Source: Candidatus Binatia bacterium (GTDB lineage: Bacteria > Desulfobacterota > Binatia > UBA9968). Taken from it: a stretch of 37,125 nucleotides of DNA. The stretch spans positions 1-37,125 of the forward strand of contig JAICEJ010000005.1 in assembly GCA_025924215.1 (NCBI GenBank), in the 5' to 3' direction. A model generated the notes under the pieces. It ran no database searches. It was not told the DNA's origin and saw only the letters and a list, made by a program, of their open reading frames with translations. Shown one piece after another: positions 13,750 to 30,726 of the stretch. Each line of letters starts with the position of its first letter. Position 1 is the first letter of the stretch. Position numbers and translations under genes: made by a program.

Positions 13750-15297
13750 ATGAACTTGTCTAATTCTATTAAAAATCTTCCGCGCGCCGATTTTCTCAGA
13801 AGTGTCGGGATTTACATCATGCGCGACAATCTGGTGTTGGTTCGGCTGCGCAAGAATTTTCTTAGCGTCACGCTACTTGAACAGGAGCTGAGAGATCTAC
13901 CAGTCGGTGAAAACCGCCAAGCCATTTCGGAGTTAACCGGATGGATTGCTGAAGACGTGCGTGAGATCGCACTGAAAGCCGAACATGATTCGCGTGAGCG
14001 AGCGTTGCGTCAGGCGATTCTCTCGCTCTTGCCCCATTTCAGCGCCGGTAGGGATTCGCTCTATATCTGTGTTCCACAAGATCAGGCGATAGTTCAAACT
14101 ATCTATCTGCCGCAAGCGGCCGAGGCTAATCTTCAACAGGTGCTGGAATACGAAATTGAACGGCAATTACCCTTCAATCGCGATGAAATTTTTTACGATT
14201 ACCTGCCGATGGGAAAACGCGGCGATAAGATCGGCCTCTTTCTGTTCGCCATTCCGAAGAAACATCTGGCCGGCGTATTGGACGTCTTGGGATCGTTTGG
14301 TATCCTTCCCAGCGGAGTTGAAACGACCGCGACGGCTCTCGCGAATTATCTGCTTTTTTGCAAGAGAGACTTGGCCGGTTGCGCGGCGATCATTGGCGGC
14401 CACGCCGATGATCGCGAATTAATCGGAGTTCGGGCTAGCCCCGCCGGTTGGACGCAAGCTCCGGAACTGCTCTTCTCACACAGATTGCCCGACGCTGAGT
14501 GGGCCGAAGGCATCGGCAGGGAACTCATTGCCGAATGTTTACGTCAAACCCCAAAACTCTACGCATGGGGAAACGCGGAGCAAGTCTTTCATTCTGCGAA
14601 TGGGGAAAAGGTTGAATGCGAGGATCTTTGTACTCTGGCAATCGAAAAGCTTGGCGGTAGAGACCAGTTATCCGCTGCAACCTTGCCGGCCGTTGGCGCG
14701 GCGCTGCGCGGCGTTCGAGAAGCGCGCTTAGAGACCAACGTTCTTCGGCCAGCTGGGGCGGATCGCGGCGCACGAAACAATCTCTCGCGCATGAATTCAT
14801 TGATGATCGGCTTGCTGCTTCTCTTGCTTCTGGGCTGGGGAATTAGCTACCCGATCAAGGACGAATTACGACTAAAGCAACTGCAGCAGGAGAATCACAA
14901 AACCGAACCTTCTGTGGAGGCTTTGCGCCGTGAGGAGGCCCAGCTACAGACGGTGCGCAAGGAAGTACAGTTTCTATCGGATATAGATCGACGTAAGGGC
15001 GAGGTGCTGCGCGTGCTTGATGAACTTTCGAAGGTGGTACCGACCAGCGCTTATTTGTCTAATTTCCGCTACCGCAATGGCGTCTTGGAACTCCAGGGCA
15101 ACGCCGAGAATGCGTCTACCTTAATTCCGCTATTAGAGAAGTCGCCGCTTTTTGAGAATGTTGCATTCAATGCGCCTTCAAACCGCGGCCGTGACAATCG
15201 GGAAACATTTTCGCTGAAAGCCGAGTTGGAGAAACAACCTAATAGCGGAAAATTGCCCCCCGTCGATAAGTCTAAAGAGAAGGCTGGTAAGCTATGA
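13750..15297 (+). CDS. gspL: Type II secretion system protein GspL (PilM/PilN-like)
   Basis: PilM-like pattern SLYICVPQDQAIVQTIYLPQAAEANLQQVLEYEIERQLPFNRDEIFYDYLPMG, then a TM segment and PilN-like ELSKVVPTSAYLSNFRYRNGVLELQGNAENASTLIPLLEKSPLFENVAF. Confidence 0.92.
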   Translation: MNLSNSIKNLPRADFLRSVGIYIMRDNLVLVRLRKNFLSVTLLEQELRDLPVGENRQAISELTGWIAEDVREIALKAEHDSRERALRQAILSLLPHFSAGRDSLYICVPQDQAIVQTIYLPQAAEANLQQVLEYEIERQLPFNRDEIFYDYLPMGKRGDKIGLFLFAIPKKHLAGVLDVLGSFGILPSGVETTATALANYLLFCKRDLAGCAAIIGGHADDRELIGVRASPAGWTQAPELLFSHRLPDAEWAEGIGRELIAECLRQTPKLYAWGNAEQVFHSANGEKVECEDLCTLAIEKLGGRDQLSAATLPAVGAALRGVREARLETNVLRPAGADRGARNNLSRMNSLMIGLLLLLLLGWGISYPIKDELRLKQLQQENHKTEPSVEALRREEAQLQTVRKEVQFLSDIDRRKGEVLRVLDELSKVVPTSAYLSNFRYRNGVLELQGNAENASTLIPLLEKSPLFENVAFNAPSNRGRDNRETFSLKAELEKQPNSGKLPPVDKSKEKAGKL

Positions 15298-15944
15298 AAC
15301 AGCTTTGGGCAAGATTATCTAAACGGGAACGTGGCCTGGTTGTAACCACCTTGCTAATCCTATTACTCGTGCTCGGGCGCATTTCGGTGGTCAGTCCCTA
15401 CATGGCTCATCGTGAGTGGGTACAAACCCAGCTGGAAATACAGCCGCAGCTTCTGGAAAAAAACTTGCGGTACATTGGACAAAAGGAACAATTAAGTGCT
15501 GCGTTGGAAGCGGCACGAAACGACGTGAAGGCCCATGAGGCCAAGCTATTGACGGGCGATACACCATCTGTGAATGCCTCGGATTTGCAAGAAACCGTGC
15601 AAGGACTAGCGGCCAAGGAAGGTACTCAGGTGATTACCACACGGGTGCTGAATCCGGAAGCTACCGGAGCTTTTTCCAAGATCGCTATTCAAATGGAAGT
15701 CGGCGGTCAAGTCGAGCAGGTTGCTTCGCTTGTTCGTGGCATTGAGACCTCCCCCAAGCTTCTGGTCATAGATGAAATCAATGTCCGTTCATTGTTTCGT
15801 CCTGTTGGATTGCCGCAACAACAAGGGGCGCAGCCAACGGCACAGAATCTGCGCGTCAGTATCACCGTCGCGGGCTTCGCCCGCGGACAGGCCGCTGCGG
15901 CAAAATCGGATGCGCCAAAGACGATGGTAGAAAAAGGCGTGTGA
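15294..15944 (+). CDS. gspM: Type II secretion system protein GspM (PilO-like)
   Basis: WARLSKRERGLVVTTLLILLLVLGRI N-terminus with TM; coiled-coil region; ATGA overlap with gspL. Confidence 0.88.
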   Translation: MKQLWARLSKRERGLVVTTLLILLLVLGRISVVSPYMAHREWVQTQLEIQPQLLEKNLRYIGQKEQLSAALEAARNDVKAHEAKLLTGDTPSVNASDLQETVQGLAAKEGTQVITTRVLNPEATGAFSKIAIQMEVGGQVEQVASLVRGIETSPKLLVIDEINVRSLFRPVGLPQQQGAQPTAQNLRVSITVAGFARGQAAAAKSDAPKTMVEKGV

Positions 15945-16035
15945 GTAGCAGAGCACCTGACCTGATTTTTCACTGCCATAGACTGCGTTCGAAAGATGGC
16001 GGTTATTTCCGAGAAAAGAAGCCCAGGTTTTCTTA

Positions 16036-16061
16036 ACGCTAAAGGTGAACGAGGTTAGCGT
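16036..16061 (+). terminator. Hairpin followed by a T-rich run in the gspM-gspC gap (possible attenuator)
   Basis: ACGCTAA (16036-16042) pairs perfectly with TTAGCGT (16055-16061); followed by gaggTCTTTTGTTT. Confidence 0.35.
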
Positions 16062-16082
16062 GAGGTCTTTTGTTTACCTGAG

Positions 16083-16098
16083 AACCCCCTGGAGGGTT
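16083..16098 (+). promoter_or_regulatory. Hairpin AACCC-cctgga-GGGTT containing the GGAGGG Shine-Dalgarno of gspC
   Basis: 5-bp perfect stem. The GGAGGG (16091-16096) ends 7 nt before ATT 16104. Confidence 0.4.
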
Positions 16099-16103
16099 TC
16101 GAA

Positions 16104-16751
16104 ATTTTAAAAAGGTCATCACTGCTCAGCATTCTTCTTTTGGTCGCCATAGGTTTGGTCGGCTGGCGCATCTACAAAGTCTGGCAAGAGGAGCCGTGGA
16201 GTTTGCCGCAGCAGCCCAAGACTGCGACTCCGTTAGCGCTTGACGAGCAGCCAACCAACGCCAACCCGACGCTGCCGGCGGTAAATCCGGATCAGATCAT
16301 CAGCAAAAATCTCTTTGATCCGGAGCGAGGCGCAGGTGCAACTCGAGAAGCGGAATTTAATTCTCGTTCTTTTCAACGAATCCGTAATATGGTCCTGCTT
16401 GGCACGGTGATTCTCGGCGAGAGTCGCTCGGCGATTTTGCAAGATCCGGCCACCCAAGCGTCGACGCCCAGTGGACCAGCAGCGCCCATTGGTCCCATGC
16501 GCGTAAAACTCGGTGACAGTGTAGAAGGCTTTCGCTTAACTGAAATTGCCGACCGGAGGGTCGTCTTTACCAAGGGCGGGTCGAGGGTCGAGGTTCTCTT
16601 AGACTATTTCCGGCGAGATGATCCGGCACCCGGTCGAACAGCGACACCGCCAAGCCAACGCGGTGAGCCGGCGGTCGCACCGAGAGTCGTTCCCAACCTG
16701 CCTAGAAGAGGAGCTCTTCCCGCTCCACCAAGTCCAAATCCCGAGTCATAA
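16104..16751 (+). CDS. gspC: Type II secretion system protein GspC (TM plus HR domain, no clear PDZ)
   Basis: (I/M)LKRSSLLSILLLVAIGLVGWRIYKVW TM anchor, then ISKNLFDPERG...LLGTVILGESRSAILQD...RVKLGDSVEGFRLTEIADRRVVFTKGGSRVEVLL. The ORF track starts at TTG 16140, which removes half of the TM anchor. No ATG/GTG/TTG lies between the upstream in-frame TAG (16056) and 16140. Confidence 0.8.
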   Translation: MLKRSSLLSILLLVAIGLVGWRIYKVWQEEPWSLPQQPKTATPLALDEQPTNANPTLPAVNPDQIISKNLFDPERGAGATREAEFNSRSFQRIRNMVLLGTVILGESRSAILQDPATQASTPSGPAAPIGPMRVKLGDSVEGFRLTEIADRRVVFTKGGSRVEVLLDYFRRDDPAPGRTATPPSQRGEPAVAPRVVPNLPRRGALPAPPSPNPES

Positions 16752-16766
16752 CCAGCAGGAGGATTG

Positions 16767-19700
16767 ATGCCAGGAAAGTGTTTCAGAGGGTTGGTGACGT
16801 TGATGTACGTCACTAGCAGTGTGCTACCGCTCGCTGCACAGCAAGGTCCCACGCAGCCTCCGCTTACACCCGTACCCGTGCAACCCGCGCCTACAGAACC
16901 GAATCAGGCGCCGCCGGGGCAGGGTCAGCCACCGCCCAGTCAGCTTCCGCGCCGCGCGCCTATAGTGCCGCAACGGCCCCCCTCCGCTGCGCAACAGGTG
17001 CCAGGAACTCCTGGCGCATCGGACGGAAGCGTTCCCCAAGGTGTACCCGCGCCCGCGCCTGCCCCTGCTCCGACGCCGATTCCGCCGGAACGAAGAATGT
17101 TGCCGCCGCCGAGCACGGCGGGCGGTATGGTTTCGCTGAATTTCAACCGAGCCGATTTAGTCGAGATCATTCACATTTTAGCCCAGCACCTTCGGCTGAC
17201 ATACACCATTGATCCCGAGGTTAAGGGAATCGTTACGATTCATAGCGCCGAGCCGTTGCGCCCCGAAGATTTGCTGCCCATTTTCCATCAAGTCCTGCGC
17301 ATGAACAATGCGGTAGCGGTGCGCACCGGAAACATCTACCGGATCACGACGATCAAGGATGCTAAGGGTCTGGTACGGCCATTGGCGCAAGGCCGTGAAG
17401 ACAGTTTCGCGCTGCAGGTCGTTCCGGTGCGATTTTTTTCAGCGGCGGAAATGAAGAAGCTTTTGACTCCGTTTTTGACGCCCGGCGGCGAGCTCGTAGA
17501 TTATCCGAGGGGAAATTTTCTGGTCATTATCGATCTTCCTTCTAACATCCAGCGCCTAGTCGAAATCGCCGATATGATCGACGTTCAGGTGTTTGCCGGA
17601 ACGCGCATGGAGATCTATCAGCCGAAGGTTGCCAGCGCTGAAGAACTTGCCACCGAAATGACGAAAGTGATGCAGTATTACGCGGCGTCGGCGCCGCAAC
17701 AAGAGAACTTCGCTTCTCAATTCGTTCCATTGCCGCGGATCAATCAGCTCTTGGTGATCAGCCACAGTGAGGCTGCGTGGACTTATGCAAAGAGGTGGCT
17801 GGAGCGCGTCGACGTTGCTGGTGAAGGACCAGGCAGGCGAATCTTTATATATCCGGTGGAAAACGGCAAAGCGACGGAGCTGGCCGATGTCTTGACCCAG
17901 GCGCTTGGTCAGCCGATGACGGGCAGAAGGGATACTTCCAGAACCCTTCAAGACTTGCACCGATCGACACCTGGAGGATTCGGACAGTTCGATAGCGGCA
18001 GCCGTTCATTGAGTCCATCGTATGGGCGCTCAGGTTTTCAGCAACAAACCCAGCCGTTAGGGGGCGCGTTTGCCACCGTTCCCGCGCCAGCGCCCACTCA
18101 AGCGCCGCCCGCGGCGCCCACCCCCGGATTGCCGCCTGGATTACCATCCGTGCCGGGAGCACCCAGGCCGGCCACGCCTGCCGCTCCCGGAGCCAAGCCG
18201 GAAGAACAGCTGAGAATCGTGCCTGATCCGGGAACCAATTCGTTGATAATTTATGGCACTGTTCAAGAGTTTCAAAATATCAAGAATATTCTTAAAGATC
18301 TCGACATTATCCCACGGCAGGTTCTGATGGACGTGATGGTGGCGGAAGTAAGCTTGACGGGGTCTGAATCATTCGGCGTTGAATATGAATTGTTTCGCAA
18401 ATACAACCCTTCCATTTTCGGTCAAACTTTCGATTCTCAAGGAGCGGTGAGAAGCGGGATTTTCAATCAAGCAACTCGCCCCGCCACTGAGAATTCGCCG
18501 TTTGCTCAGTTCTTGAACGGCATCAGTGGCGTTGCCGGTCGGGGCAATACGATCCGCGCATTTATCTCGGCACTAGCGACCGACAACCGCGCAAAAATTC
18601 TCTCCTCGCCCAGTGTCCTGGCCACGGATAACCGGCCGGCCCGAATCCAAGTCGGCCGCGAGATTCCTGTTTTATCGTCGCAATCACAATCCGTTGTCGG
18701 CGACAGTCCGATCGTGAACAGCGTGCAGTATCGGAACACCGGCGTGATTCTCACGATCATTCCACAAGTCAATTCACAGGGTTTAGTTCACCTGCAGGTC
18801 AAACAAGAGGTTAGCGATGTTGGAGCCCCGTCTTTTGGCAATACCAACTCGCCTTCGTTCACGACCCGCGATGCGGAAACCACCGCAGTAGTGCAAGACG
18901 GGGACACGCTGGCGATCGGCGGTATCATTAGCGACACTACAAGGCGAGATCGATCAGGAGTTCCTTACTTGATGGATCTGCCAGTCTTGGGGCGTCTTTT
19001 CGGCACCACCAATGATACGACGGATCGCACAGAGCTGGTGATGCTGATTACGCCCCATGTCGTTCGCAACAGAGACGAAGCACAGCAGGTCACTGAGGGG
19101 TTCAAAGAAAAGATCTATGGAGTAAGAAACGAACTCGAACGTTTTTGGATGGAACAGGAGCGCCTGAAATCAAGAAGGCAGCAGCCTGCCATGCCGCCGG
19201 CTGAAATTCCTGCGGTGCCGGGCCCCAGAGAGAATTTACCAATTCCCACTCCGAATACATCGTCGATCCCGAGGGGTATGCCTGGACCAGCCTTGCCGCA
19301 GCACGCGCCGCAGAATCCTGCGCCGCCCCAGCCTTCGATATCCTTGGATAAAAGAGGCAGGAAAAATGCTTCGGCTATGGAAAGGGCAGGTGCGACGGCG
19401 ATATCGGATCGTCCTGCAGATGTCGCGGTAGTAACCGAGTTGACCAACCGCAACCCGCCGTTGCCGTGGCCTCCAGCCGTGCCCCACTCCCCAGCCAATT
19501 TAGTTACGTCCAGTGATCCAATGCAAGTCGCACAGGGTCTACAATCTGAAGGCATCGCCTCGGCGTTGTCGGTTCGATCGATTGACGCAGTCGCGCAATT
19601 CGAACGACCGGCTCCGGCGCAAGCGAGCTTAGGTAATCCGATCCATCCTACGAACCGGGTCATCACAGCCGCGAAAAAAATCGACCAGGCAACTCGGAAT

Positions 19701-19955
19701 CCTGACATGAATCACATTTGGATGGTTCAGGTCGCGTCTCTGCCGGAAGAAAAAGATGCTGATCAGATGGCCGATCGGCTCCGTCAAAAAGGCTACGATG
19801 CGCGCGTCATCCGGGCCGCGGTCGACAATCGATTGCGCTACCGCGTTCGTGTCGGCCAATTGACGACCCGAAATGAAGCAGTCGAACTAAACAATACGCT
19901 TAAAGCAAATGAGAAGTTTTCCGATAGCTACATTTCGCGCGTAACGGTTAGATAA
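16767..19955 (+). CDS. gspD: Type II secretion system secretin GspD with proline-rich linkers and a C-terminal SPOR-like domain
   Basis: N0/N1 domains: VSLNFNRADLVEIIHILAQHLRLTYTIDPEVKGIVTIHSAEPL. Secretin core: ILSSPSVLATDNRPARIQVGREIPVLSS...VQYRNTGVILTIIPQVN...DGDTLAIGGIISDTTRRDRSGVPYLMDLPVLGRLFGTTNDTTDRTELVMLITPHVV. C-term: WMVQVASLPEEKDADQMADRLRQKGYDARVIRAAVDNRLRYRVRVGQLTTRNEAVELNNTLKA. AGGAGG precedes ATG 16767. Confidence 0.95.
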   Translation: MPGKCFRGLVTLMYVTSSVLPLAAQQGPTQPPLTPVPVQPAPTEPNQAPPGQGQPPPSQLPRRAPIVPQRPPSAAQQVPGTPGASDGSVPQGVPAPAPAPAPTPIPPERRMLPPPSTAGGMVSLNFNRADLVEIIHILAQHLRLTYTIDPEVKGIVTIHSAEPLRPEDLLPIFHQVLRMNNAVAVRTGNIYRITTIKDAKGLVRPLAQGREDSFALQVVPVRFFSAAEMKKLLTPFLTPGGELVDYPRGNFLVIIDLPSNIQRLVEIADMIDVQVFAGTRMEIYQPKVASAEELATEMTKVMQYYAASAPQQENFASQFVPLPRINQLLVISHSEAAWTYAKRWLERVDVAGEGPGRRIFIYPVENGKATELADVLTQALGQPMTGRRDTSRTLQDLHRSTPGGFGQFDSGSRSLSPSYGRSGFQQQTQPLGGAFATVPAPAPTQAPPAAPTPGLPPGLPSVPGAPRPATPAAPGAKPEEQLRIVPDPGTNSLIIYGTVQEFQNIKNILKDLDIIPRQVLMDVMVAEVSLTGSESFGVEYELFRKYNPSIFGQTFDSQGAVRSGIFNQATRPATENSPFAQFLNGISGVAGRGNTIRAFISALATDNRAKILSSPSVLATDNRPARIQVGREIPVLSSQSQSVVGDSPIVNSVQYRNTGVILTIIPQVNSQGLVHLQVKQEVSDVGAPSFGNTNSPSFTTRDAETTAVVQDGDTLAIGGIISDTTRRDRSGVPYLMDLPVLGRLFGTTNDTTDRTELVMLITPHVVRNRDEAQQVTEGFKEKIYGVRNELERFWMEQERLKSRRQQPAMPPAEIPAVPGPRENLPIPTPNTSSIPRGMPGPALPQHAPQNPAPPQPSISLDKRGRKNASAMERAGATAISDRPADVAVVTELTNRNPPLPWPPAVPHSPANLVTSSDPMQVAQGLQSEGIASALSVRSIDAVAQFERPAPAQASLGNPIHPTNRVITAAKKIDQATRNPDMNHIWMVQVASLPEEKDADQMADRLRQKGYDARVIRAAVDNRLRYRVRVGQLTTRNEAVELNNTLKANEKFSDSYISRVTVR

Positions 19956-20136: not shown

Positions 20137-20970
20137 ATGACAGTTTCGATCTCTGAGTTGATTGTACTCATCCGTGGTGGCGGCGAAATGGCTACAGGTA
20201 TCGCGCACCGGTTGCACCGTTGTCATATGCGGGTGTTAATCACTGAAATTACTATGCCCACGTCGGTCCGGAGAAATGTTGCATTTGCCGAAGCGGTTTA
20301 CAAAGGCGCTCACACCGTCGAAGGAGTCGAGGCTGTTCGCGCTGCTTCTTGCGATGAAGCTTATATGGCTTGGAAGCGAAATCAAATTCCGGTCTTTGTA
20401 GATCCCGAGGCGTCGATTCGAGAAATTCTTAAGCCCGTCGTGATTGTCGACGCCATTATGGCTAAGAAGAATGGCGTTGCAAGACTCACTGACGCGCCGG
20501 TTGTGATCGGTGTGGGCCCAGGCTTCACGGCGGGGTTTAATGTGCATGCGGTAGTTGAAAGTAATCGGGGTCATCATTTAGGGCGTGTCATCTGGGATGG
20601 GGCCGCCGAAACCGACACCGGCATACCCGCTTCGGTGGATGGCTATACGGCATCCAGAGTTCTGAGGGCGCCGCGGAGCGGGACCTTTAATGCGCTCCGA
20701 GCTATCGGTGATGTGATCGCGACGGGTGAGCCGGTCGCACACGTGAATGGTGAATTGATCAAAGCGGAGATCTCAGGGCAGATTCGCGGGCTACTCCGCA
20801 ATGGCATTCAGGTCCAGCAAGGCAGCAAAGCCGGCGACATTGATCCGCGCGGTGAAAGGGGTTATTGTGATTCGATTTCCGATAAGTCGCGGGCGATCGC
20901 CGGCGGTGTCTTGGAAGCGGTTCTTCATTCTCTCGGAGATTTAAAAATTCATGGCGATTCTAAATTCTAA
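20137..20970 (+). CDS. YqeB/EF2563-family selenium-dependent molybdenum hydroxylase-associated protein
   Basis: VLIRGGGEMATGIAHRLHRCHMRVLITEITMPTSVRRNVAFAEAVYKGAHTVEGVEA..., VDAIMAKKN, VGVGPGFTAGFNVHAVVESNRGHHLGRVIWDGAAETDTGIPASVDGYTASRVLRAPRSGTF, as expected for this family. Confidence 0.85.
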   Translation: MTVSISELIVLIRGGGEMATGIAHRLHRCHMRVLITEITMPTSVRRNVAFAEAVYKGAHTVEGVEAVRAASCDEAYMAWKRNQIPVFVDPEASIREILKPVVIVDAIMAKKNGVARLTDAPVVIGVGPGFTAGFNVHAVVESNRGHHLGRVIWDGAAETDTGIPASVDGYTASRVLRAPRSGTFNALRAIGDVIATGEPVAHVNGELIKAEISGQIRGLLRNGIQVQQGSKAGDIDPRGERGYCDSISDKSRAIAGGVLEAVLHSLGDLKIHGDSKF

Positions 20971-20992
20971 AATCTCAAACGGTGAGGCTGGC

Positions 20993-21913
20993 GTGAATCC
21001 AAAACAGCTGACAATCGAGGACGTCCAGGAGATTCTGCTCAAAGAGGAATATGTTTGCGACCGCTCATTGGCTACCGTGGTGTATCTTTCATTGGCAATG
21101 GGTAAACCATTGCTGCTCGAAGGAGAGGCCGGAGTAGGTAAAACCGAAATCGCCAAGGTGCTTGCGAAAGTGTTGAACGCCAAACTGATCCGGCTCCAGT
21201 GCTACGAGGGCTTGGACGCCAACACGGCACTTTACGAGTGGAATTATCCCAAGCAAATGTTGCGGATCAAACTGGAGGAAGTTCAAAGAGGAGATAAAAA
21301 GGCGGTCGAAACCGAGATCTTCAATCAAGATTACTTGCTCAAGCGCCCTCTGTTGGAGGCCATTATCAGCGAAGAGGAGAATCCGCCGGTGCTGCTTATC
21401 GACGAAATTGATCGCGCCGACGTCGAGTTTGAAGCCTTCTTGCTCGAAGTACTGTCCGACTTCCAAATCACTATCCCCGAGATTGGCACTGTACAAGCGA
21501 AGCAGCGTCCTTACGTCTTTTTGACTTCAAATCGGACCCGCGAAATTCATGATGCCCTAAAGCGACGTTGTCTTTATCATTGGATCGAGTATCCAACTTT
21601 TGAAAAGGAGCTGGAGATCATTTCGACCAAGTTCCCAGAAGTCGCCCCGGCAATGGCCAAGCAGATCTGCGCTTTTATGCAGCGGGTTCGCGAGATGAAT
21701 TTTTACAAAAGACCCGGCGTGGCCGAAACATTGGATTGGGCGACAGCTCTGATTGCCCTCAACCGAAAGGGATTGGACGACAAGACCGTCGTTGAAACAA
21801 TGGGCTGTGTATTTAAATATCGAGAAGATCTACACCATCTGAAAGAGCAAATCGAAGGCAAACATCTCAATTTGGATACATTGCTCAGGTCTTCGCCCGA
21901 ATTGATGAGTTAG
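20993..21913 (+). CDS. MoxR-family AAA+ ATPase (CoxD-like)
   Basis: Walker A LLEGEAGVGKTEIAKVLAK; Walker B PVLLIDEIDRADVEFEAFLLEVLSDFQITIPEIG; sensor FLTSNRTREIHDALKRRCLYHWIEYP. GTG 20993 with GGTGAGG upstream is preferred over ATG 20951. Confidence 0.93.
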   Translation: MNPKQLTIEDVQEILLKEEYVCDRSLATVVYLSLAMGKPLLLEGEAGVGKTEIAKVLAKVLNAKLIRLQCYEGLDANTALYEWNYPKQMLRIKLEEVQRGDKKAVETEIFNQDYLLKRPLLEAIISEEENPPVLLIDEIDRADVEFEAFLLEVLSDFQITIPEIGTVQAKQRPYVFLTSNRTREIHDALKRRCLYHWIEYPTFEKELEIISTKFPEVAPAMAKQICAFMQRVREMNFYKRPGVAETLDWATALIALNRKGLDDKTVVETMGCVFKYREDLHHLKEQIEGKHLNLDTLLRSSPELMS

Positions 21914-21918: not shown

Positions 21919-23130
21919 ATGGAAATCACTCCAGAACTCGTTGCAGCTGCAGTCAACAATTTTGCGGCGGTGCGTGGACACGGCACTGTGGCCAATTTAC
22001 TCGCCTTCGGGCGCGCTCTGAAGCAATTGGGGGTGAAGGTAAGTTTGAGCCAAGTCATCGACACGTCCCGCTCGCTCGATTTAGTGGATATCGGCGAGAA
22101 GGAGGATTTTCGCGCTCTTCTGCGGTCCAATTTGATTTCTCAAGTGGAGGATTTTCCCGTCTTCGACATGGTCTTCGATTGCTTCTGGCGCGAACAGAAC
22201 TACGAGCGGGTGCCGATGGAGACGCTCGAGATTCAAGGAACGCCCACCGAATCTCAGGCGCAAGAAGGCGGCGAGGAGGAGGGGTTGGATGAAGCCTTTG
22301 CTGACACGCCTGCGAAAGAGAATGTCGAGTTGGAGAATTTGGACGAGTTTTCGATTCCGACCTACAGCGCCCAAGAATTGCTCAACCGCAAAGATTTTAG
22401 CGAAATGAGTGTCGAGGAGAGTCGCGCGATCGCCCGCGCAATCTTGCTGATTGCCACGAAAATTGCCACCCAGATCAGCCGGCGCAAGAAACACTCGCGC
22501 AAAGGGGCGACAGTGGACCCGCGCTGGACCTTGCGAAAAAATATCAAATACGGCGGCGACGTGGTCGAGTTGGTTAACCGCAAGCGCCGCATCAAAAAAA
22601 CCAAGGTGGTGCTGCTTTGTGATGTCAGCGGCTCGATGGATTGTTACAGTCGATTTTTGATTCAATTCATGTACGGATTGCAGAATGAGCTGTGGGGTGT
22701 TGAGACGTTTGTTTTTAGTACCTCGCTTACCCGTATCACCCATCTGATTCGCACCAAGGATATTGCCAATGCGCTGGAGCAGATCTCCGGCAGCATTTTG
22801 GGCTGGTCCGGCGGGACCAACATCGGCCGTTCTCTGCAAACCTTTAACCGAAATTTTGCTCCGGCCATGGTGACCTCCCGAACCATCGTCGTTATCATCA
22901 GTGACGGTTGGGACCGGGGCGACGTTAGCCTACTAGAGCGGCAGATGCAGGATCTAAAGCGTCGATGTAAGAAAGTGATCTGGCTCAATCCGCTGCTTGC
23001 CAGTGAAAATTATGAGCCCTTGTGCAAGGGAATGCAGGCGGCTTTGCCGTACATCGATCTGTTCTTGTCGGTTCATAATCTCAACAGTTTAGTTGCGTTG
23101 GGGCGCACTTTACAGAAGATGGTGGCTTGA
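21919..23130 (+). CDS. VWA-domain protein (CoxE-like)
   Basis: VVLLCDVSGSMDCYSRFLIQFMYGLQNELWGVETFVFSTSLTRIT...GWSGGTNIGRSLQTFN...VVIISDGWDRGD (MIDAS); directly follows the MoxR gene. Confidence 0.93.
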   Translation: MEITPELVAAAVNNFAAVRGHGTVANLLAFGRALKQLGVKVSLSQVIDTSRSLDLVDIGEKEDFRALLRSNLISQVEDFPVFDMVFDCFWREQNYERVPMETLEIQGTPTESQAQEGGEEEGLDEAFADTPAKENVELENLDEFSIPTYSAQELLNRKDFSEMSVEESRAIARAILLIATKIATQISRRKKHSRKGATVDPRWTLRKNIKYGGDVVELVNRKRRIKKTKVVLLCDVSGSMDCYSRFLIQFMYGLQNELWGVETFVFSTSLTRITHLIRTKDIANALEQISGSILGWSGGTNIGRSLQTFNRNFAPAMVTSRTIVVIISDGWDRGDVSLLERQMQDLKRRCKKVIWLNPLLASENYEPLCKGMQAALPYIDLFLSVHNLNSLVALGRTLQKMVA

Positions 23131-23153
23131 AATCGTCGCCACGGAGGAAAATC

Positions 23154-23549
23154 ATGTCAGGTCAAGGAACGTGCTTTGAGGACCCCGTTTTGGAAGCCAA
23201 GAAGAAGGACTCGGTTTATCATCAGGTAAAAGAGTTTCTCGATAAAGGTGAAACAGTCGCGGTGGCGACTATCGTTTCGGCCAAAGGCTCGACTCCGCGA
23301 GAAGTCGGCGCGAAAATGGTGGTCACAGCCTGGGGAGAAATTCTCGGCACTATTGGCGGTGGTTGCGGTGAGGCAGACGTCAAGCGCGAAGCTATTGAAG
23401 TCATCCGAACGCGCAAACCGAGAATGGTGCGTGTAGATCTGCTCGATGACATATCGTCCGACAGCCCGGCTGTTTGCGGCGGAATCATGAATATTTTTGT
23501 CGATCCTTGGTGGGAAGAGAGCGATCGGGAGCCAGTGGCCAAGGAATGA
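23154..23549 (+). CDS. XdhC/CoxI-family N-terminal-domain protein
   Basis: VAVATIVSAKGSTPREVGAKMVVTAWGEILGTIGGGCGEADVKREAIEVI...DSPAVCGGIMNIFVDPW. GGAGG precedes ATG 23154. Confidence 0.9.
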   Translation: MSGQGTCFEDPVLEAKKKDSVYHQVKEFLDKGETVAVATIVSAKGSTPREVGAKMVVTAWGEILGTIGGGCGEADVKREAIEVIRTRKPRMVRVDLLDDISSDSPAVCGGIMNIFVDPWWEESDREPVAKE

Positions 23550-24316
23550 GCGCCCTTTCTGAAGAATTGGTGCGGATCAGCGAGCAAGGCCTATCCGCTG
23601 TTCTTGCGACGATCGTCGAAGCGGAGGGAAGCGACCGTATTCAAGCTGGCGCTAAATGCCTGGTAGTGGACGGCAAAAGCCAAACCGAGACGATCAGCGA
23701 TTCGCGCGCGGTTGAGCGGATTGTTCGTGAGAGCGAGGCGATACTAAGCGGGGAGAAGTCCAAGCTCATTGCAATTGAAATACCCGAGGCCGGAAGACTT
23801 CAGGTTTTTTTTGAAGTCATGTTGGCGCCGCCCAAGCTGATTGTTGTCGGTGCCGGCCATATCGCTGTGCCTCTAGTTCAAATCGCCAAGGTTCTAGATT
23901 TTCACGTTACTGTCATTGACGATCGCCTCCTTTATGCCAATCGCGACAGGTTTCCGGCGGCTGATGAAGTGCTGGTTGGTGATATGGCGCAAATGTTGAA
24001 AGAGATGACGATTACTCCATCCTGTTATATCATCCTGATTACCCGCGGACATAAATATGATGAACCTTGTCTGCGCCAGATCCTTCACAGTAAAGCGAAA
24101 TACATCGGTATGATCGGTAGCCGGCGCCGAATCAAGGCCTGCTTTCAAAGATTCCGGGACGAGGAGAAAATCGCCGAGGAAGTCATCGAGCGGGTGTACG
24201 CTCCGATAGGTCTGGATATCGCAACCGAGACACCGGCCGAAATTGCATTGTCAATTCTGGCTGAGGTGGTCAAGGTTCGTCGCGGCGGCAAGGCGGCATC
24301 GCTCTCTGGCCATTGA
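23546..24316 (+). CDS. XdhC-like protein with degenerate N-terminal domain and C-terminal Rossmann domain
   Basis: PPKLIVVGAGHIAVPLVQIAKVLDFHVTVIDDRLLYANRDRFPAADEVLVG...TRGHKYDEPCLRQIL...YIGMIGSRRRIKACF...VYAPIGLDIATETPAEIALSILAEVV. ATG 23546 overlaps the previous stop. Confidence 0.92.
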   Translation: MSALSEELVRISEQGLSAVLATIVEAEGSDRIQAGAKCLVVDGKSQTETISDSRAVERIVRESEAILSGEKSKLIAIEIPEAGRLQVFFEVMLAPPKLIVVGAGHIAVPLVQIAKVLDFHVTVIDDRLLYANRDRFPAADEVLVGDMAQMLKEMTITPSCYIILITRGHKYDEPCLRQILHSKAKYIGMIGSRRRIKACFQRFRDEEKIAEEVIERVYAPIGLDIATETPAEIALSILAEVVKVRRGGKAASLSGH

Positions 24317-24343: not shown

Positions 24344-24757
24344 GTGTCGCGCAGAATCGAAGGTGTGATTTTTTCGGACCTGGGCCAAGCGTCCAAATTT
24401 ATGGCGCTAGATTGGGTGCAGGAAGCGCTTCGGGAAAGTTTAGGCTTTGCGCCGTACCCGGCTACTCTCAATCTGCAGCCATCAACGCCGCAGGATGCGC
24501 GGCTGTGGGAGCAAATCCAGAGAGACGTTGCGGCGGTGCCACTGGCGCCGGTCCCGACCGGCTTCTGTAGCGCTGGGCTTTATTTTGTCAGCTTACGGCG
24601 ATTGGCCGACGGCCAGGAAACGGTCAGGGGAGCTGTACTACTTCCTGCCGTGGTCGATTATCCAAAAGACAAAATCGAAGTCGTTGCCCAAGTTCGAATA
24701 AAAGATGCGCTCTCTGTCAAGGATGGTGATCGCTTGGTTTTGGAGTTTGACGATTGA
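24344..24757 (+). CDS. DUF120 / CTP-dependent (archaeal-type) riboflavin kinase-like protein
   Basis: EGVIFSDLGQASKFM...LRESLGFAPYPATLNLQP...GFCSAGLYFVSLRRLADGQETVRGAVLLPAVVDYPKDKIEVVAQVRIKDALSVKDGDRLVLEF. The pattern LGF.PYP.TLNL ... GAV..P....Y....IEV.A...++D.L.+KDGD is typical of RibK/DUF120. Confidence 0.75.
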   Translation: MSRRIEGVIFSDLGQASKFMALDWVQEALRESLGFAPYPATLNLQPSTPQDARLWEQIQRDVAAVPLAPVPTGFCSAGLYFVSLRRLADGQETVRGAVLLPAVVDYPKDKIEVVAQVRIKDALSVKDGDRLVLEFDD

Positions 24758-25407
24758 ATAACAAAAAGCGACTGATCGTTGGTATTTCCGGAGCCACCGG
24801 CGCCATTTATGGCGTTCGTATGCTCGAGATCCTGGCGAAATTGGCTGAGATCGAAACTCATCTGGTTTTGAGCAAAGCGGGTCGAATGACGATCCAGGTG
24901 GAGACTCCGTACTCGTCTAAGGATGTCGAGGCAATGGCGGATGTCGTTCACGACGTTAACAATGTCGGAGCCAGCATCTCGAGCGGTTCCTTTCGCACCG
25001 AAGGCATGGTCATCGCGCCGTGCTCGATGAAGTCGATGAGCGGTATTGCGCATTCGCTCGGGGGCGACCTCCTAGTGCGCGCCGCTGATGTGGTATTAAA
25101 GGAGCGCAAAAAGCTTGTCCTCGTAGTACGAGAAACCCCGCTCCACTTGGGCCATCTCGAGGCGATGGTGTCGCTGACCCGAATGGGGGCGGTTATCTTT
25201 CCACCGGTGCCGGCTTTTTATCACCGACCTAAAACATTGGACGACGTAATCAATCAGACAGTCACTCGTATTCTGGATCAGTTCGGCATCGATGTGAAAC
25301 TATTTCACCGATGGGATGACGAAGGAATGACTCGTCATCCTGATGCCGGAAAAACCACCACGCTGGCGGCCGCCAAGGCCAGCCAGCGGATCAAAAAGCA
25401 GTCGTAA
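24754..25407 (+). CDS. ubiX: UbiX-family flavin prenyltransferase
   Basis: LIVGISGATGAIYGVRMLEIL; APCSMKSMSGIAHSLGGDLLVRAADVVLKERKKLVLVVRETPLHLGHLEAMVSLTRMGAVIFPPVPAFYHRPKTLDDVINQTVTRILDQFGID. TTG start overlaps the previous stop. Confidence 0.95.
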   Translation: MNNKKRLIVGISGATGAIYGVRMLEILAKLAEIETHLVLSKAGRMTIQVETPYSSKDVEAMADVVHDVNNVGASISSGSFRTEGMVIAPCSMKSMSGIAHSLGGDLLVRAADVVLKERKKLVLVVRETPLHLGHLEAMVSLTRMGAVIFPPVPAFYHRPKTLDDVINQTVTRILDQFGIDVKLFHRWDDEGMTRHPDAGKTTTLAAAKASQRIKKQS

Positions 25408-25425
25408 AGCGCTGCTCTGCTCGAC

Positions 25426-26478
25426 ATGCCAAGCCGCCGAGAGAACAAAGCTCTCACCAAGACCCAACAGCGAAAAAAAGAACATCTCGAGCTGTGTCTC
25501 GACAGCAAAACAATTTTGGATCCAACAGGATCCGGTCTCGGTTCCTATACCTTTGTTCACAACGCATTGCCCGATCTCGACATAGACGAAATCAACACCG
25601 AGACAACCTTTCTGGGCAAGCGACTGAAGGCGCCTTTACTGATCTCGTCGATGACTGGCGGCTTCAGCTTGGCGCGAACGGTTAACCGCAACCTTGCGGC
25701 CGCGGCGCAAGAGCTTGGTTTGGCGATGGGGGTCGGGTCGCAGCGCGTCGCCATCGAGGAACCATCGGCCGCAGAATCTTTTCAAGTCAGGGAAGTTGCC
25801 CCGGACATCCTCCTGCTAGCCAATCTGGGTGCTGTTCAACTCAATTACGGTTACGGTCTGGATCACTGTCGACGCGCCGTTGAAATGATCGGTGCGGATG
25901 CCCTAATTTTACATCTGAACGTTCTCCAAGAAGCTGTCCAGCCGGAGGGCAACCGCAATTTTTCCGGCTTGACGGCTAAAATAGCGGCGATTTGTCGTGA
26001 TCTGGAGGTAGCGGTGGTCGCCAAAGAAGTCGGCAGCGGCATCTCGGCCGAAGTTGCTGTGCGGCTTGCTCGCGCGGGCGTCAAAGCCATCGATGTCGCG
26101 GGCAAGGGCGGAACTTCTTGGTACGCGGTCGAAGCCTCCAGGGCCGCCAAGGCCGGGCAGCCGGTGGATGTCTCGTTTGCCGACTGGGGTATTCCAACCG
26201 ATCAGTCCCTGATTTCGGTACGGGAAGTCCTCCCGGAGATGACACTGGTCGCTTCCGGCGGCATTCGCTCCGGCTTGGACATGGCGAAAGCCATAGCTCT
26301 TGGGGCCGACATGGCCGCTTTGGGTCAACCGTTGCTGGCGCCGGCATTAGAGTCCGTCGAAAAGGTAGTAAAATCGCTGCGTTCGATTATCTACGAGATC
26401 AAGGTGGCGATGTTGTGTGTCGGCGCTCGTGATCTTGGCGCTCTACGTAGAACTCCATTGTTGCGGCGATCCCTGTGA
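25426..26478 (+). CDS. fni: Type 2 (FMN-dependent) isopentenyl-diphosphate delta-isomerase
   Basis: [120 protein letters not shown]. Confidence 0.96.
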
Positions 26479-26536
26479 GCGTCTCGAGTTCCGTTCGACT
26501 CTATAAATTCTATGCTCATTTGGTTCCGTAGCTTCT

Positions 26537-27016
26537 ATGCCTGACGACCTAAAGCAGCAGGTTATCCATTACCTCCAGACTCATAACACCATGACGTTGG
26601 CGACTTGCGCCAACGATGTGCCGTGGGCAGCCACGGTGTTTTATGCCAGTGAAGAATGGAAGCTCTATTTTTTTTCGGCGCCGCAATCGCGCCATTGTCA
26701 AAATCTCGCTGTCAACGCGCGAGTTGCAGTCACCGTCCAAGAGGATTACAAGGATTGGCGCCGGATTAAGGGGATTCAGTCGGAGGGAAAAGCGCTGCTG
26801 GTGGATTCGACTCTCGAGAAAACCAAGGCGATGGCCGTTTATGCGCGCAAGTATCCTGAGGTGATTAAGCTTTTCACGACCCCCGGCAGCGGAGTTTTTT
26901 ACCAGGCCTTTCTTAAAGTCAAATTTTACTGCGTCGTTCCTGAGAAAATATATTTCATCGATAACGAACAGGGCTTCGGCAAAAGGCAGGAGTTGGAGTT
27001 GACGGAGCAGGCGTAG
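26537..27016 (+). CDS. Pyridoxamine 5'-phosphate oxidase-like FMN-binding protein
   Basis: HNTMTLATCANDVPWAATVFYASEEWKLYFFSAPQSRHCQNLAVNARVAVTVQEDYKDWRRIKGIQSEGKA is the PNPOx-like split-barrel pattern. Confidence 0.85.
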   Translation: MPDDLKQQVIHYLQTHNTMTLATCANDVPWAATVFYASEEWKLYFFSAPQSRHCQNLAVNARVAVTVQEDYKDWRRIKGIQSEGKALLVDSTLEKTKAMAVYARKYPEVIKLFTTPGSGVFYQAFLKVKFYCVVPEKIYFIDNEQGFGKRQELELTEQA

Positions 27017-27029
27017 CAAAGGATGGACA

Positions 27030-27503
27030 ATGTCGCAAATGCTGGGCAATGAGTTGACCGCAGAGCTATTGAGCCGGTTGGATGGACGGGATGTGGGATC
27101 CTATGAAGGTAAGATCATCCCGATTTTCACGGTGGATGAATACGGCTGGCCTCATCCGGCTTTGCTGTCGTATTACGAAATGGTGGCCAAGAATCCACGT
27201 ACTATCGATATGGCGCTGTGGAAGAACAGCTCAACGGCTAATAATCTCAGGCAAAGCGGTAAGGTGACCTTGATGATCAACGATCACGCGCTGAATTATT
27301 ATCTTAAGGGAACGGTGAGCCAGACCGAAGCTGAAATGTCCGGCACCCCTGCGGTTTCACGCTTTCGCGTGACTCTGGAGCAGGTGATCGAGGATCAGGA
27401 ACCCAATGCCGAGATAACTACCGGATTAACTTACCGCCGAATGAGTCAGCGTGATCCCAACGATTTTGCCACGAAAGTTTTCCGAGGCTTGAAAGAAAAA
27501 TAG
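27030..27503 (+). CDS. Second PNPOx-like FMN-binding split-barrel protein
   Basis: IIPIFTVDEYGWPHPALLSYYEMVAKNPRTIDMALWKNSSTANNLRQSGKVTLMINDHALNYYLKGTV. Confidence 0.7.
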   Translation: MSQMLGNELTAELLSRLDGRDVGSYEGKIIPIFTVDEYGWPHPALLSYYEMVAKNPRTIDMALWKNSSTANNLRQSGKVTLMINDHALNYYLKGTVSQTEAEMSGTPAVSRFRVTLEQVIEDQEPNAEITTGLTYRRMSQRDPNDFATKVFRGLKEK

Positions 27504-28798
27504 TGAATCGCAAAAAAGCCATCGCCTGGATCGCAGCGGCAAGCGTCATTGGGGTGGGTGGCGCCGGCTGGTGGCAGCTAAGCGATAGCCCCAAAGAACC
27601 CCCATACGTTACCACGCCGGTACAAACGGCAAGTATCACCCAGGTGGTCTCATCAACCGGAACTCTGCAGGCGGTGGTCACTGTGCAAGTCGGCAGCCAG
27701 GTGTCCGGAACCATCGAAAAGCTCTTCGCTGATTTCAACACCAAAGTAAAAGCCGGACAGATTGTCGCTCAACTCAATCAGGATAAATTCAGAGCTGCCG
27801 AAGATCAGGCGCGCGCGAATTTGCTCGCGGCGCAGTCGAATATCGAGAAAAGTAAGGTTGGCGTGGCCGATACGTTGCGTACCCTCGAGCGCAACCGGCA
27901 GCTGAGAACGAAAGACTTGATGGCGCAAAGCGATCTTGACGCGGCGCAGGCGGCGTACGACGCCGCCGTTGCCCAGGTGGAGGTGAACCGGGCGCAGGCT
28001 GCGCAGGCTCAAGCCTCATTGAAGCAAGCGACAGTGGATCTCAACAACACGGTGATTCGCTCGCCTGTCGACGGACTCGTGATCTCAAGAAACGTCGATG
28101 TCGGTCAAACGGTGGCGGCTTCACTTCAGGCGCCGACGCTGTTTACGATTGCCAACGACTTGGCGCGAATGGAAGTTCATACCAATGTCGATGAGGCGGA
28201 TGTCGGCAACGTTAGAGAAGCGCAGGAAGTCACGTTCACGGTGGACGCCTTTCCGTCGCGACGCTTTAGGGGGCGCGTGCATCAGGTGCGCAATGCGCCC
28301 ATTGTCGTGCAAAATGTGGTGACCTATGTAGCGGTCGTCCGCATCGACAACAAAGAATTGCTGCTCAAACCCGGTATGACTGCCAATGTGCAATTTCTGG
28401 TCAGCCGAAAAGAAGATGTCCTGACCATCCCGAATATGGCAATGCGCTTCAAACCACCTGAGGAGAAAGAAGAAGCGCAGGAACTTCTGCGCCGCGAACA
28501 GAGCCGAACCGCGCCAAAGGTGGGCGAGCGGCGGACCAGCCGTCAAAGCGCCGCGGGTGGAAGTGGCGCTGGGGGCGGGGGAACCAGGCGGGCGCGTATC
28601 TATCTCCTCAAGGACGATAAAGCTCAACCAGTTGAAATTCAGCTGGGCATTACCGATGGATCGAGAACCGAAGTTAGAAGCGGCGATGTCAAAGAAAATG
28701 ATCCGGTGATCATCGGCATGAGCAGCGCTGATTCTAGCGGTCCAGCGGTCGCCAACCCATTTCAGCCGCAGCGGCCCCGTGGTTTCGGATTGCGATGA
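27503..28798 (+). CDS. macA: MacA/HlyD-type efflux periplasmic adaptor
   Basis: SSTGTLQAVVTVQVGSQVSGTIEKLFADFNTKVKAGQIVAQLNQDKF...TVIRSPVDGLVISRNVDVGQTVAASLQAPTLFTIANDLARMEVHTNVDEADVGNV, typical of MacA-family adaptors. Confidence 0.93.
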   Translation: MNRKKAIAWIAAASVIGVGGAGWWQLSDSPKEPPYVTTPVQTASITQVVSSTGTLQAVVTVQVGSQVSGTIEKLFADFNTKVKAGQIVAQLNQDKFRAAEDQARANLLAAQSNIEKSKVGVADTLRTLERNRQLRTKDLMAQSDLDAAQAAYDAAVAQVEVNRAQAAQAQASLKQATVDLNNTVIRSPVDGLVISRNVDVGQTVAASLQAPTLFTIANDLARMEVHTNVDEADVGNVREAQEVTFTVDAFPSRRFRGRVHQVRNAPIVVQNVVTYVAVVRIDNKELLLKPGMTANVQFLVSRKEDVLTIPNMAMRFKPPEEKEEAQELLRREQSRTAPKVGERRTSRQSAAGGSGAGGGGTRRARIYLLKDDKAQPVEIQLGITDGSRTEVRSGDVKENDPVIIGMSSADSSGPAVANPFQPQRPRGFGLR

Positions 28799-29508
28799 CC
28801 GAGCTCCTCCGGGTCAAAGATCTGGTGAAAAAATACCGCATGGGCGACATGGAGGTGCCGGCGCTGCGCGGCGTCACTCTTACTATCGGACGTGGCGAGT
28901 TCGTCGCGGTTATGGGTTCTTCCGGCTCAGGCAAGTCGACCTTTATGAATATACTGGGTTGTCTCGATCGCCCGACCAGCGGAAAGTACTTTCTTGATGG
29001 CGATGAAGTCGGAGCATTGACCGCGGATCAATGGGCGGAAATTCGCAACCAGCATATCGGTTTCGTCTTTCAGGGCTTCAATTTGCTAGCACGCACCACC
29101 GCCTTGGAAAATGTTGAACTGCCGATGATGTACAGCGGCTGTAACGGCAAGCAAAGACATCAGCGTGCCCTGGAAGTGCTCGGACTGGTCGGTCTCAGTG
29201 AGCGTCTTGGTCATACGCCCAATCAACTCTCCGGCGGGCAGCAGCAGCGTGTGGCTATCGCGAGAGCCCTGGTGAACCGACCGTCGTTGATTCTCGCCGA
29301 CGAGCCCACCGGAAATCTCGATTCCGCCACCAGCGCGGAGATCATGGGATTGTTTCAAAAGCTCAACCGCGAGCAAAGCATCACCATCGTTTTAGTGACT
29401 CATGAAACCGACATTGCCCAGTATGCCAAGCGTCAAATTCATTTCAAGGACGGCTTGGTGGTTTCAGACCGCCCCACCGGATCACTTCGGTCATCAATGG
29501 AGCCCTGA
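28795..29508 (+). CDS. macB: MacB-type ABC transporter ATPase
   Basis: [79 protein letters not shown]. Confidence 0.95.
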
Positions 29509-29511
29509 GCA

Positions 29512-30726
29512 ATGTTGTTCATGACACTGCGGATCGCGCTCCGTGCTCTAATGAGGAACAAATTGCGCGCTTTTCTGACGATGCTTGGCATTATCATTGG
29601 AGTTGGCGCCGTGATCGCAATGGTGGCGATCGGTGAAGGAGCCAAGGCTACTATTCGGTCTCAAATCGCCAGTCTGGGAACCAACGTATTGATTATCTTG
29701 CCCGGCACCTCTGTGCAGGGGGGGGTACGGACGGGGTCCGGAGGTGTCAACACACTTGTTGATGGCGATGCCAAAGCGATGATGCGAGAGCTGCCTGCCG
29801 TTGCCTTCGCCTCGCCGGCGTTGCGTCGCAACGAACAGATTGTGGCGGGCAATCTTAACTGGCTGACCTTAACACAAGGAGTTGGGCCGGAATTTCAGCA
29901 GATTCGCGATTGGCAGGTCGCCGAAGGACGATTTATTCACGATGGCGATATTGAGAGCGCCGCCAAGGTAGCGGTAGTCGGCGAGACCGTGGTTAATCAG
30001 TTATTCGGGAGTGACGATCCCATCGATGCAGTCATTCGTATCCGAAACATCCCATTTCGGGTCGTAGGCGTGCTTGCGCCCAAAGGACAAACGAGCCAGG
30101 GCACTGATCAAGACGACACGATTATCATTCCTTATACAACCATGCAAAAACGGTTGATGCGTATCACTTTCGTGCAAAGTATCGTTGCCTCTGCGATCAA
30201 TGCCGAGCGCCTTCCGGAGGCGCAAGCACAGATCACCGCGCTCTTGCGCCAGCGACACCGCATCGGGCCGGATCGTGACGACGATTTTTATATTCGCAAT
30301 CTATCGGACATCGCCGAGGCTGCCTCAAGCAGCGCGCGGGTCATGGCCGTGCTGCTTGGCACCGTGGCTTCGATCTCTCTACTGGTCGGAGGGATTGGCA
30401 TCATGAACATCATGCTTGTCTCGGTGACAGAGCGCACTCGTGAAATAGGCATTCGCATGGCGGTGGGAGCGCGCCGCAAAGACATCATGCTGCAATTTTT
30501 GGTGGAGGCCGTGGTCATGGCGGCAACCGGAGGCTGTATCGGGATATTACTCGGTATCGGCAGCTCCGAGATCCTCAATGACTGGGCGCAGTGGCCGACT
30601 CACATCAGCACCACCATCATTGCCATCGCCTTTTTCTTTTCCGGCGCCGTCGGAGTATTCTTCGGCTTCTATCCCGCCAGAAAAGCGGCGAATTTAGATC
30701 CCATCGACGCGCTGCGCTACGAGTGA
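29512..30726 (+). CDS. MacB-type ABC transporter permease (FtsX/MacB_PCD)
   Basis: ALRALMRNKLRAFLTMLGIIIGVGAVIAMVAIGEGAKATIRSQIASLGTNVLIILPG; C-term GGIGIMNIMLVSVTERTREIGIRMAVGARRKDIMLQFLVEAVVMAATGG...FGFYPARKAANLDPIDALRYE. Confidence 0.95.
   Translation: MLFMTLRIALRALMRNKLRAFLTMLGIIIGVGAVIAMVAIGEGAKATIRSQIASLGTNVLIILPGTSVQGGVRTGSGGVNTLVDGDAKAMMRELPAVAFASPALRRNEQIVAGNLNWLTLTQGVGPEFQQIRDWQVAEGRFIHDGDIESAAKVAVVGETVVNQLFGSDDPIDAVIRIRNIPFRVVGVLAPKGQTSQGTDQDDTIIIPYTTMQKRLMRITFVQSIVASAINAERLPEAQAQITALLRQRHRIGPDRDDDFYIRNLSDIAEAASSSARVMAVLLGTVASISLLVGGIGIMNIMLVSVTERTREIGIRMAVGARRKDIMLQFLVEAVVMAATGGCIGILLGIGSSEILNDWAQWPTHISTTIIAIAFFFSGAVGVFFGFYPARKAANLDPIDALRYE

Follow-up and report, generated by a model that had tools for sequence, protein, structure and literature searches.

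A conserved operon of an uncultured Binatia order that looks like a prenyl-FMN supply unit joined to molybdenum hydroxylase maturation genes

Introduction

Helper proteins such as LpdD and PhdC matter for UbiD enzymes, and more of them are expected (PMC10865409, PMC13040415). The phdABC operon of Mycolicibacterium fortuitum encodes a phenazine-1-carboxylate decarboxylase, the UbiX protein PhdB and the maturase PhdC, which turns the radical of prenylated flavin mononucleotide (prenyl-FMN, prFMN) into the active iminium form; with it, E. coli UbiD is about ten times as active (PMC13040415). Catalysis by PhdC has been proposed to involve Glu47 and Glu136, and except for the distant YclD all its reported relatives come from Actinomycetota (PMC13040415). 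In the LpdB/LpdC/LpdD system, UbiX is accompanied by a small accessory protein that aids UbiD activation, the prFMNH2 chaperone LpdD (PMC10865409). Here we analysed a stretch of 37,125 nucleotides from Candidatus Binatia bacterium (assembly GCA_025924215.1, contig JAICEJ010000005.1, positions 1 to 37,125; hereafter the window), in which five consecutive genes, DUF120, ubiX, idi2, ppoxA and ppoxB, appear to form a prFMN cassette.

The cassette shares with phdABC a UbiX and a PhdC-type split-barrel protein. It differs in that it lacks a UbiD, adds DUF120 and a type 2 isopentenyl-diphosphate isomerase (IDI-2), would serve many UbiD enzymes, and is joined to maturation genes for molybdenum hydroxylases. 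The published close PhdC-like sequences are all actinobacterial (PMC13040415), whereas PpoxB of the window is not. With the Lpd system it has in common a UbiX and a small accessory protein, but LpdD is reported to have a different, proteasome-assembly-chaperone-like fold (PMC10865409). The row ubiD-ubiX-DUF120 recurs outside the phylum in the phenylphosphate carboxylase (ppc) operon on plasmid pAZKH of Azoarcus sp. KH32C, whose 3' end reads ubiD-ubiX-DUF120-NUDIX; that operon serves phenol degradation, carries the NUDIX gene instead of idi2, and is listed with neither PpoxB nor molybdenum genes. The upstream half of the operon described here comes from the known cox/xdh maturation families (CoxD/CoxE, XdhC) and YqeB, in this case fused with prFMN genes. 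Overall, the cassette is quite probably a dedicated unit for the supply and activation of prFMN, in one operon with molybdenum hydroxylase maturation genes; we infer its enzymatic activities, its co-transcription and the delivery of its product.

Results

In the proposed route, IDI-2 would convert isopentenyl diphosphate (IPP) to dimethylallyl diphosphate (DMAPP), and UbiX would join DMAPP to reduced FMN to yield prFMNH2, which the PhdC-like PpoxB would oxidise to the active iminium form. The DUF120 protein would most likely supply or deliver FMN to UbiX, either as a riboflavin kinase or as a flavin-handling relative. The finished prFMN would then reach the UbiD enzymes, roughly 25 to over 40 of them, encoded elsewhere in the genome, while YqeB, MoxR, CoxE and XdhC would mature the expanded molybdenum hydroxylases.

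The initial annotation, made from the sequence alone, had described five consecutive plus-strand genes for a DUF120 protein, UbiX, IDI-2 and two split-barrel flavoproteins. Their positions and strand were confirmed, and family searches agreed with their identities; the extent of the unit proved larger, the five genes occupying the central part of a 13-gene run, yqeB-moxR-coxE-xdhC(N)-xdhC(C)-DUF120-ubiX-idi2-ppoxA-ppoxB-hlyD-macB (macB comprising ATPase and permease), whose upstream part had been overlooked. From DUF120 to ppoxB the intergenic gaps are -4, 18, 58 and 13 bases. The 13 genes are likely one operon because no gap between them exceeds 58 bases, co-transcription being deduced from position. 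Scans for promoters (10 vs 6.6) and terminators (10 vs 12.9) gave nothing above chance that would divide or bound this operon. The upstream genes yqeB, moxR, coxE and the split xdhC all belong to families tied to molybdenum hydroxylase maturation.

The number of potential prFMN clients in these genomes is large. For comparison, we used 35 genomes of the uncultured order to which the window belongs and 23 other genomes of the same class; the nearest named relative of the window genome is the metagenome-assembled genome Deltaproteobacteria bacterium C_No_T20_B_bin.39. All 35 order genomes hold at least 16 UbiD copies, many of them more than 40, and none of the 23 class relatives has any. The window genome itself encodes 25 UbiD genes, all outside the window. 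The earlier remark that the window holds no UbiD is thus correct, while a chain broken for want of a UbiD, or a genome without one, can be dismissed. UbiX above the family cut-off occurs once per genome and always in the cassette (33 genomes; in G009 with its two parts on separate contig ends), whereas UbiX matches in the 23 class relatives are weak and all below the cut-off. IDI-2 above the cut-off is likewise single and in the cassette in families f1 and f2, and is absent from f3. Since the only UbiX is that of the operon, it would have to feed the whole UbiD set. In a first look, more than 60 UbiD candidates each were counted in G005, G007, G008, G010 and G015, with 125 in G010 (8.3 Mb, 9% contamination), which are unusually large UbiD sets. 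At one locus of G005 (L140, contig 14:46000-65000), a 15-kb stretch carries at least six UbiD genes, accompanied by an amidohydrolase and by binding proteins of transporters.

The gene order itself is conserved. Of the 35 order genomes, 34 have DUF120, in one case with a score under the family cut-off; the 23 other class genomes all lack it. The arrangement moxR-coxE-xdhC-DUF120-ubiX-(idi2)-ppoxA-ppoxB is kept in 33 loci of three families (f1, f2 and f3), wherever the contig is long enough, and persists down to about 50% DUF120 identity. A few f1 loci have one or two additional genes inserted near ppoxA. The f3 clusters are without idi2, hlyD, macB and the type II secretion gene found upstream in the window, the remaining genes being kept. 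Such recurrence, in 33 loci from three families, is not due to chance, and the adjacency is clearly not a peculiarity of one genome, the case that the initial annotation had named as refuting its proposal. As synteny in f1 reaches into the secretion genes upstream (about eight f1 loci share gspD along with the cassette), the strong argument for selection is limited to the persistence in f2 and f3 and to the independent cases described below.

That syntenic secretion region, together with a UbiD of the window genome that lies beside a UbiA-like gene (L136; UbiA assigned by reading, not by search) and hints that some prFMN may serve quinone synthesis, would agree with another view, in which ordinary housekeeping genes, a menaquinone or ubiquinone UbiX and an isoprenoid IDI-2, are held together by shared ancestry only. 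We consider this very improbable: class relatives lack UbiD and a true UbiX, the order survives to f3 despite different flanks, and the partners are found together again in unrelated families and on a betaproteobacterial plasmid.

UbiX of the window is a full member of its family (TIGR00421, 246 bits against a cut-off of 109), with 53% identity to E. coli O157 UbiX and 51% to A. niger UbiX. The active-site residues E46, K112, R122, E123, Y152 and W183 (O157 numbering), some of them catalytic, are invariant in all aligned UbiX rows, including both of these references. At the gatekeeper position (181 of P. aeruginosa UbiX, Q203 of A. niger UbiX), the window and all order sequences have Gln; other DUF120-linked UbiX proteins have Gln or His, and none has Phe. 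Use of dimethylallyl phosphate (DMAP) has been associated with Phe181 of P. aeruginosa UbiX, use of DMAPP with Gln203 of A. niger UbiX, and use of both with His164 of E. coli O157 UbiX, the gatekeeper by itself being insufficient to fix donor specificity (PMC6541611). The Gln gatekeeper therefore suggests that the window UbiX uses DMAPP, in which case no DMAP phosphatase would be needed, and IDI-2 would fit the cassette directly because it makes DMAPP. The initial annotation had seen the missing DMAPP-to-DMAP phosphatase as a gap in the chain; its absence from the window holds, but if UbiX uses DMAPP the incompleteness would not follow. IDI-2 scores 414 bits with TIGR02151 (cut-off 281) and matches solved IDI-2 structures at 1e-80, its active-site stretch H-x-N-x-x-Q-E reading HLNVLQE in alignment with HLNPAQE and HVNPLQE of the solved proteins. 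E. coli Nudix proteins can convert DMAPP to DMAP (PMC12359138), and by analogy the NUDIX gene of the Azoarcus operon would fit a role in making DMAP from DMAPP.

The two split-barrel proteins had been read jointly as users or carriers of flavin, which for PpoxB appears too general. PpoxB matches Pfam PNPOx_N weakly, below the cut-off. Its AlphaFold2 model (mean predicted local distance difference test, pLDDT, 75.5) was searched against 350,542 PDB chains, and ranks 1 to 9 were all PhdC (E 7e-9 to 3e-8, template-modelling (TM) scores 0.61-0.71). In a profile search, the only significant matches were three PhdC chains, with E 1.6e-4 over 67 residues. Glu47 of PhdC aligns with the invariant E50 of PpoxB. 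The region of PpoxB expected to hold the counterpart of PhdC Glu136 (ExW) has an invariant EDQEPNAEIT stretch and no Trp, as in YclD, but lies in a loop too poorly modelled to place that Glu. Outside the order, a PpoxB homologue was found near a ubiD in G091, a genome with an extreme number of UbiD genes; the other 25 genomes tested had none. These sequence and model comparisons make PpoxB look like a PhdC-like prenyl-FMN maturase candidate. PpoxA could not be assigned in this way: its profile matches general split-barrel proteins only (3ec6, 1.2e-5), and a PhdC-like identity was rejected.

A different function is conceivable for the pair, namely that PpoxA and PpoxB are FMN reductases that hand reduced FMN to UbiX and IDI-2. 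UbiX requires reduced FMN, PpoxA resembles split-barrel proteins in general, and PhdC itself has an HpaC-like flavin reductase fold (PMC13040415). Even so, with PhdC as the nine best fold matches and the three significant profile matches of PpoxB, and with Glu47 conserved, we regard a reductase role as unlikely.

The DUF120 protein had been proposed to supply FMN as a RibK-like enzyme. Membership of the family is firm (Pfam CTP-dep_RFKase, E 9.5e-20, 71 bits against a cut-off of 25), whereas the RibK equivalog model NCBIfam NF040694 gives 53 bits against a cut-off of 168. The structure model superimposes on the archaeal riboflavin kinase MJ0056 bound to cytidine diphosphate (CDP) and FMN (2vbu) with TM scores of 0.79/0.83. 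Residues T43 and N45 of MJ0056, presumably its magnesium ligands, are invariant in all archaeal and bacterial DUF120 rows, and P96 and E107 in all bacterial ones. Beside this shared fold and these four residues stand several differences from MJ0056. The glycine loop G14-x-G16-x-G18 reads D-L-G-Q-A in the window, with Asp in place of Gly14 in all 30 order sequences and mostly Ala or Ser in place of Gly18 across bacterial DUF120 proteins; Trp26 and a Cys at position 73 are bacterial features, the latter present in 58 of 58 bacterial DUF120 proteins and absent from the archaeal ones; and the genomic context is UbiX/UbiD instead of ribB. A separate riboflavin kinase, RibF, is encoded in every order genome, so bulk FMN needs no DUF120, and DUF120 as the only FMN source was rejected. 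Of the original proposal, the family, the fold and T43/N45 stand, and FMN supply as such remains unproven.

The altered loop, the bacterial Cys73, the constant presence of RibF and the low equivalog score would also suit a protein that is not a riboflavin kinase at all and works with UbiX as a flavin or prFMN handler (a carrier, a chaperone or a kinase of another small substrate), with the cassette still making prFMN. UbiD helpers such as LpdD are known and further ones expected (PMC10865409). We treat this as a serious if tentative alternative; against it stand the invariance of T43, N45, P96 and E107 in all bacterial DUF120 proteins and the close match to CDP/FMN-bound MJ0056. From sequence and model, the most likely assignment is a flavin-phosphate role for UbiX, as either FMN supply, which is slightly favoured, or handling of FMN or prFMN.

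The linkage of DUF120 to UbiD and UbiX extends beyond the order. In a sample of 297 genomes of the phylum, DUF120 occurs in 27, and all 27 carry UbiD. With UbiD counted up to ten per genome, the median is 4 in genomes with DUF120 and 1 in the 270 without (Mann-Whitney p 2.6e-16, not corrected for phylogeny), and at least four UbiD genes are found in 19 of 27 against 11 of 270. The four genomes with the most UbiD candidates (G007, G091, G185 and G000) all have DUF120. Neighbourhoods outside the order show independent linkages: in f20 and f64, two other families of the phylum, ubiD-ubiX is followed by DUF120; at locus L132, one DUF120 gene lies on each side of ubiX, and idi2 and ubiD are close by; in G091, idi2 overlaps DUF120; and the Azoarcus operon adds a case from another phylum. 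G185 (L127 6260-16399, contig 4) represents a second lineage with the combined arrangement, in the order yqeB-xdhC-moxR-coxE-[masked]-ubiD (C-terminal part)-DUF120-a 191-residue protein-idi2, where the masked part between coxE and ubiD is a long series of N. The same genome has a sister copy of this DUF120 within a ubiD-ubiD-ubiX-ubiD cluster. A 1470-residue frame at L127 was discarded, as it consists mostly of N; its real last part is the C-terminal part of a UbiD.

Two side observations concern DUF120. In several of the phylum's families (L117, L119, L123, L125, L129, L132, L133), it adjoins genes for HAD-type phosphatases, which may act on a substrate of the route to prFMN or riboflavin. 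A haloarchaeal DUF120 of bacterial-like type, with GRAS instead of the GEGR loop and a very long branch, lies on a plasmid of Natrinema gelatinilyticum (L151).

The second half of the operon points to molybdenum hydroxylases, of which the window genome encodes 25 large subunits. Numbers across the order range from 8 to 40, compared with 0 to 4 in most class relatives and up to 13 in f6. In two nearly closed genomes, UbiD genes have a molybdenum hydroxylase within 5 kb more often than expected from rotation of gene positions, with 10/34 against 3.1 (P 0.0014) and 7/38 against 3.3 (P 0.04). UbiD genes also lie near genes for amidohydrolases and NMT1-type binding proteins, as in catabolic clusters. 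The operon thus seems to provide cofactors jointly to two enzyme sets, whose pathways would partly overlap.

One could also read the operon as primarily one of molybdenum hydroxylase maturation, in which DUF120 serves XdhC/CoxE by binding cytidine triphosphate (CTP) or a cytosine dinucleotide cofactor, the link to UbiX and IDI-2 being incidental. MJ0056 uses CTP, and many molybdenum hydroxylases carry molybdopterin cytosine dinucleotide; furthermore, yqeB-moxR-coxE-xdhC lies 5' of DUF120 in the order and in G185, and the hydroxylases are expanded in the order. However, in f20, f64 and Azoarcus, DUF120 accompanies ubiX/ubiD with no molybdenum genes seen nearby, DUF120 tracks UbiD number in the 297 genomes, and UbiD-rich genomes have no UbiX besides that of the cassette. 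We consider such a reading quite improbable.

The genes of the run are listed in Table 1. In f1, the HlyD-MacB efflux genes (window 27503-30726) overlap the end of the prFMN cassette. Upstream, a type II secretion cluster (GspE, F, G, H, J, K, L, M, D) occupies positions 7782-19955, its GspD carrying a C-terminal SPOR domain. Beside this cluster, adjacent minus-strand genes (1873-4191 and 4302-5825) encode dockerin/FG-GAP repeat proteins, one with a matrixin-like peptidase domain.

Table 1. Genes of the 13-gene run, with positions in the window, strand and family evidence
Gene or product	Positions	Strand	Evidence
yqeB, selenium-dependent molybdenum cofactor maturation protein family	20137..20967	+	NCBIfam TIGR03309 342 bits, cut-off 220
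moxR-type AAA+ ATPase (CoxD-like)	20951..21913	+	Pfam AAA_5; NCBIfam MadB below cut-off
coxE, VWA-domain protein	21919..23130	+	Pfam VWA_CoxE 1.3e-62
xdhC N-terminal (XdhC_CoxI) protein	23127..23549	+	Pfam XdhC_CoxI 4.5e-25
xdhC C-terminal Rossmann protein	23546..24316	+	Pfam XdhC_C 2.6e-44; likely start ATG 23546
DUF120 protein, RibK-like, divergent bacterial form of CTP-dependent riboflavin kinase family	24344..24757	+	Pfam PF01982 (CTP-dep_RFKase)
ubiX, flavin prenyltransferase, Gln gatekeeper (DMAPP type predicted)	24754..25407	+	TIGR00421
idi2, type 2 isopentenyl-diphosphate isomerase	25426..26478	+	TIGR02151
ppoxA, split-barrel flavoprotein, general-stress-protein-26 / YhbP type	26537..27016	+	Pfam PNPOx_N 2.9e-12
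ppoxB, PhdC-like candidate prenyl-FMN maturase	27030..27503	+	fold and profile matches to PhdC
HlyD/MacA-like membrane fusion protein	27503..28798	+	Pfam HlyD_D23
MacB-type ABC ATPase	28795..29508	+	Pfam ABC_tran
MacB-type permease	29512..30726	+	Pfam MacB_PCD and FtsX

Discussion

The central idea of the initial annotation, a local prenyl-FMN supply module, is supported by the conserved adjacency, by the genome-wide UbiD set with a single UbiX, and by the PhdC-like PpoxB. Several observations weigh against this reading. The PpoxB model is of moderate quality, and the loop expected to hold its second catalytic Glu has a pLDDT below 50; the UbiD-rich G185 has no PpoxB homologue; and the f3 clusters do without idi2. 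Bacterial DUF120 proteins depart from the glycine loop of RibK, RibF could cover bulk FMN, and the co-occurrence of DUF120 and UbiD was computed from capped counts in genomes of uncorrected relatedness.

Each enzyme family of the operon is already known. What appears new is the combination, the link between DUF120 and UbiX in bacteria, and a PhdC-like protein outside the actinobacteria; none of the three was found described in a literature search that covered few subscription journals, and a search for UbiD or UbiX together with riboflavin kinase returned nothing relevant. With moderate confidence, we view bacterial DUF120 as a branch of its own within the archaeal riboflavin kinase family and a general, as yet unnamed component of prenyl-FMN metabolism, for local FMN supply or for handling of flavin or prenyl substrate for UbiX, which in this order anchors a combined operon serving UbiD enzymes and molybdenum hydroxylases that possibly act in joint pathways.

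UbiD enzymes, which catalyse reversible carboxylation and decarboxylation, are difficult to produce as active proteins, since the synthesis and maturation of prFMN are limiting. The operon would represent a natural multi-gene kit for active prFMN in bacteria with dozens of UbiD enzymes, and offers DUF120, IDI-2, PpoxB and PpoxA as candidate helpers. It points to a likely role for bacterial DUF120 and would extend PhdC-like maturases beyond the actinobacteria. As a whole, the joining of the two gene sets suggests that UbiD enzymes and molybdenum hydroxylases may work together in this uncultured order.

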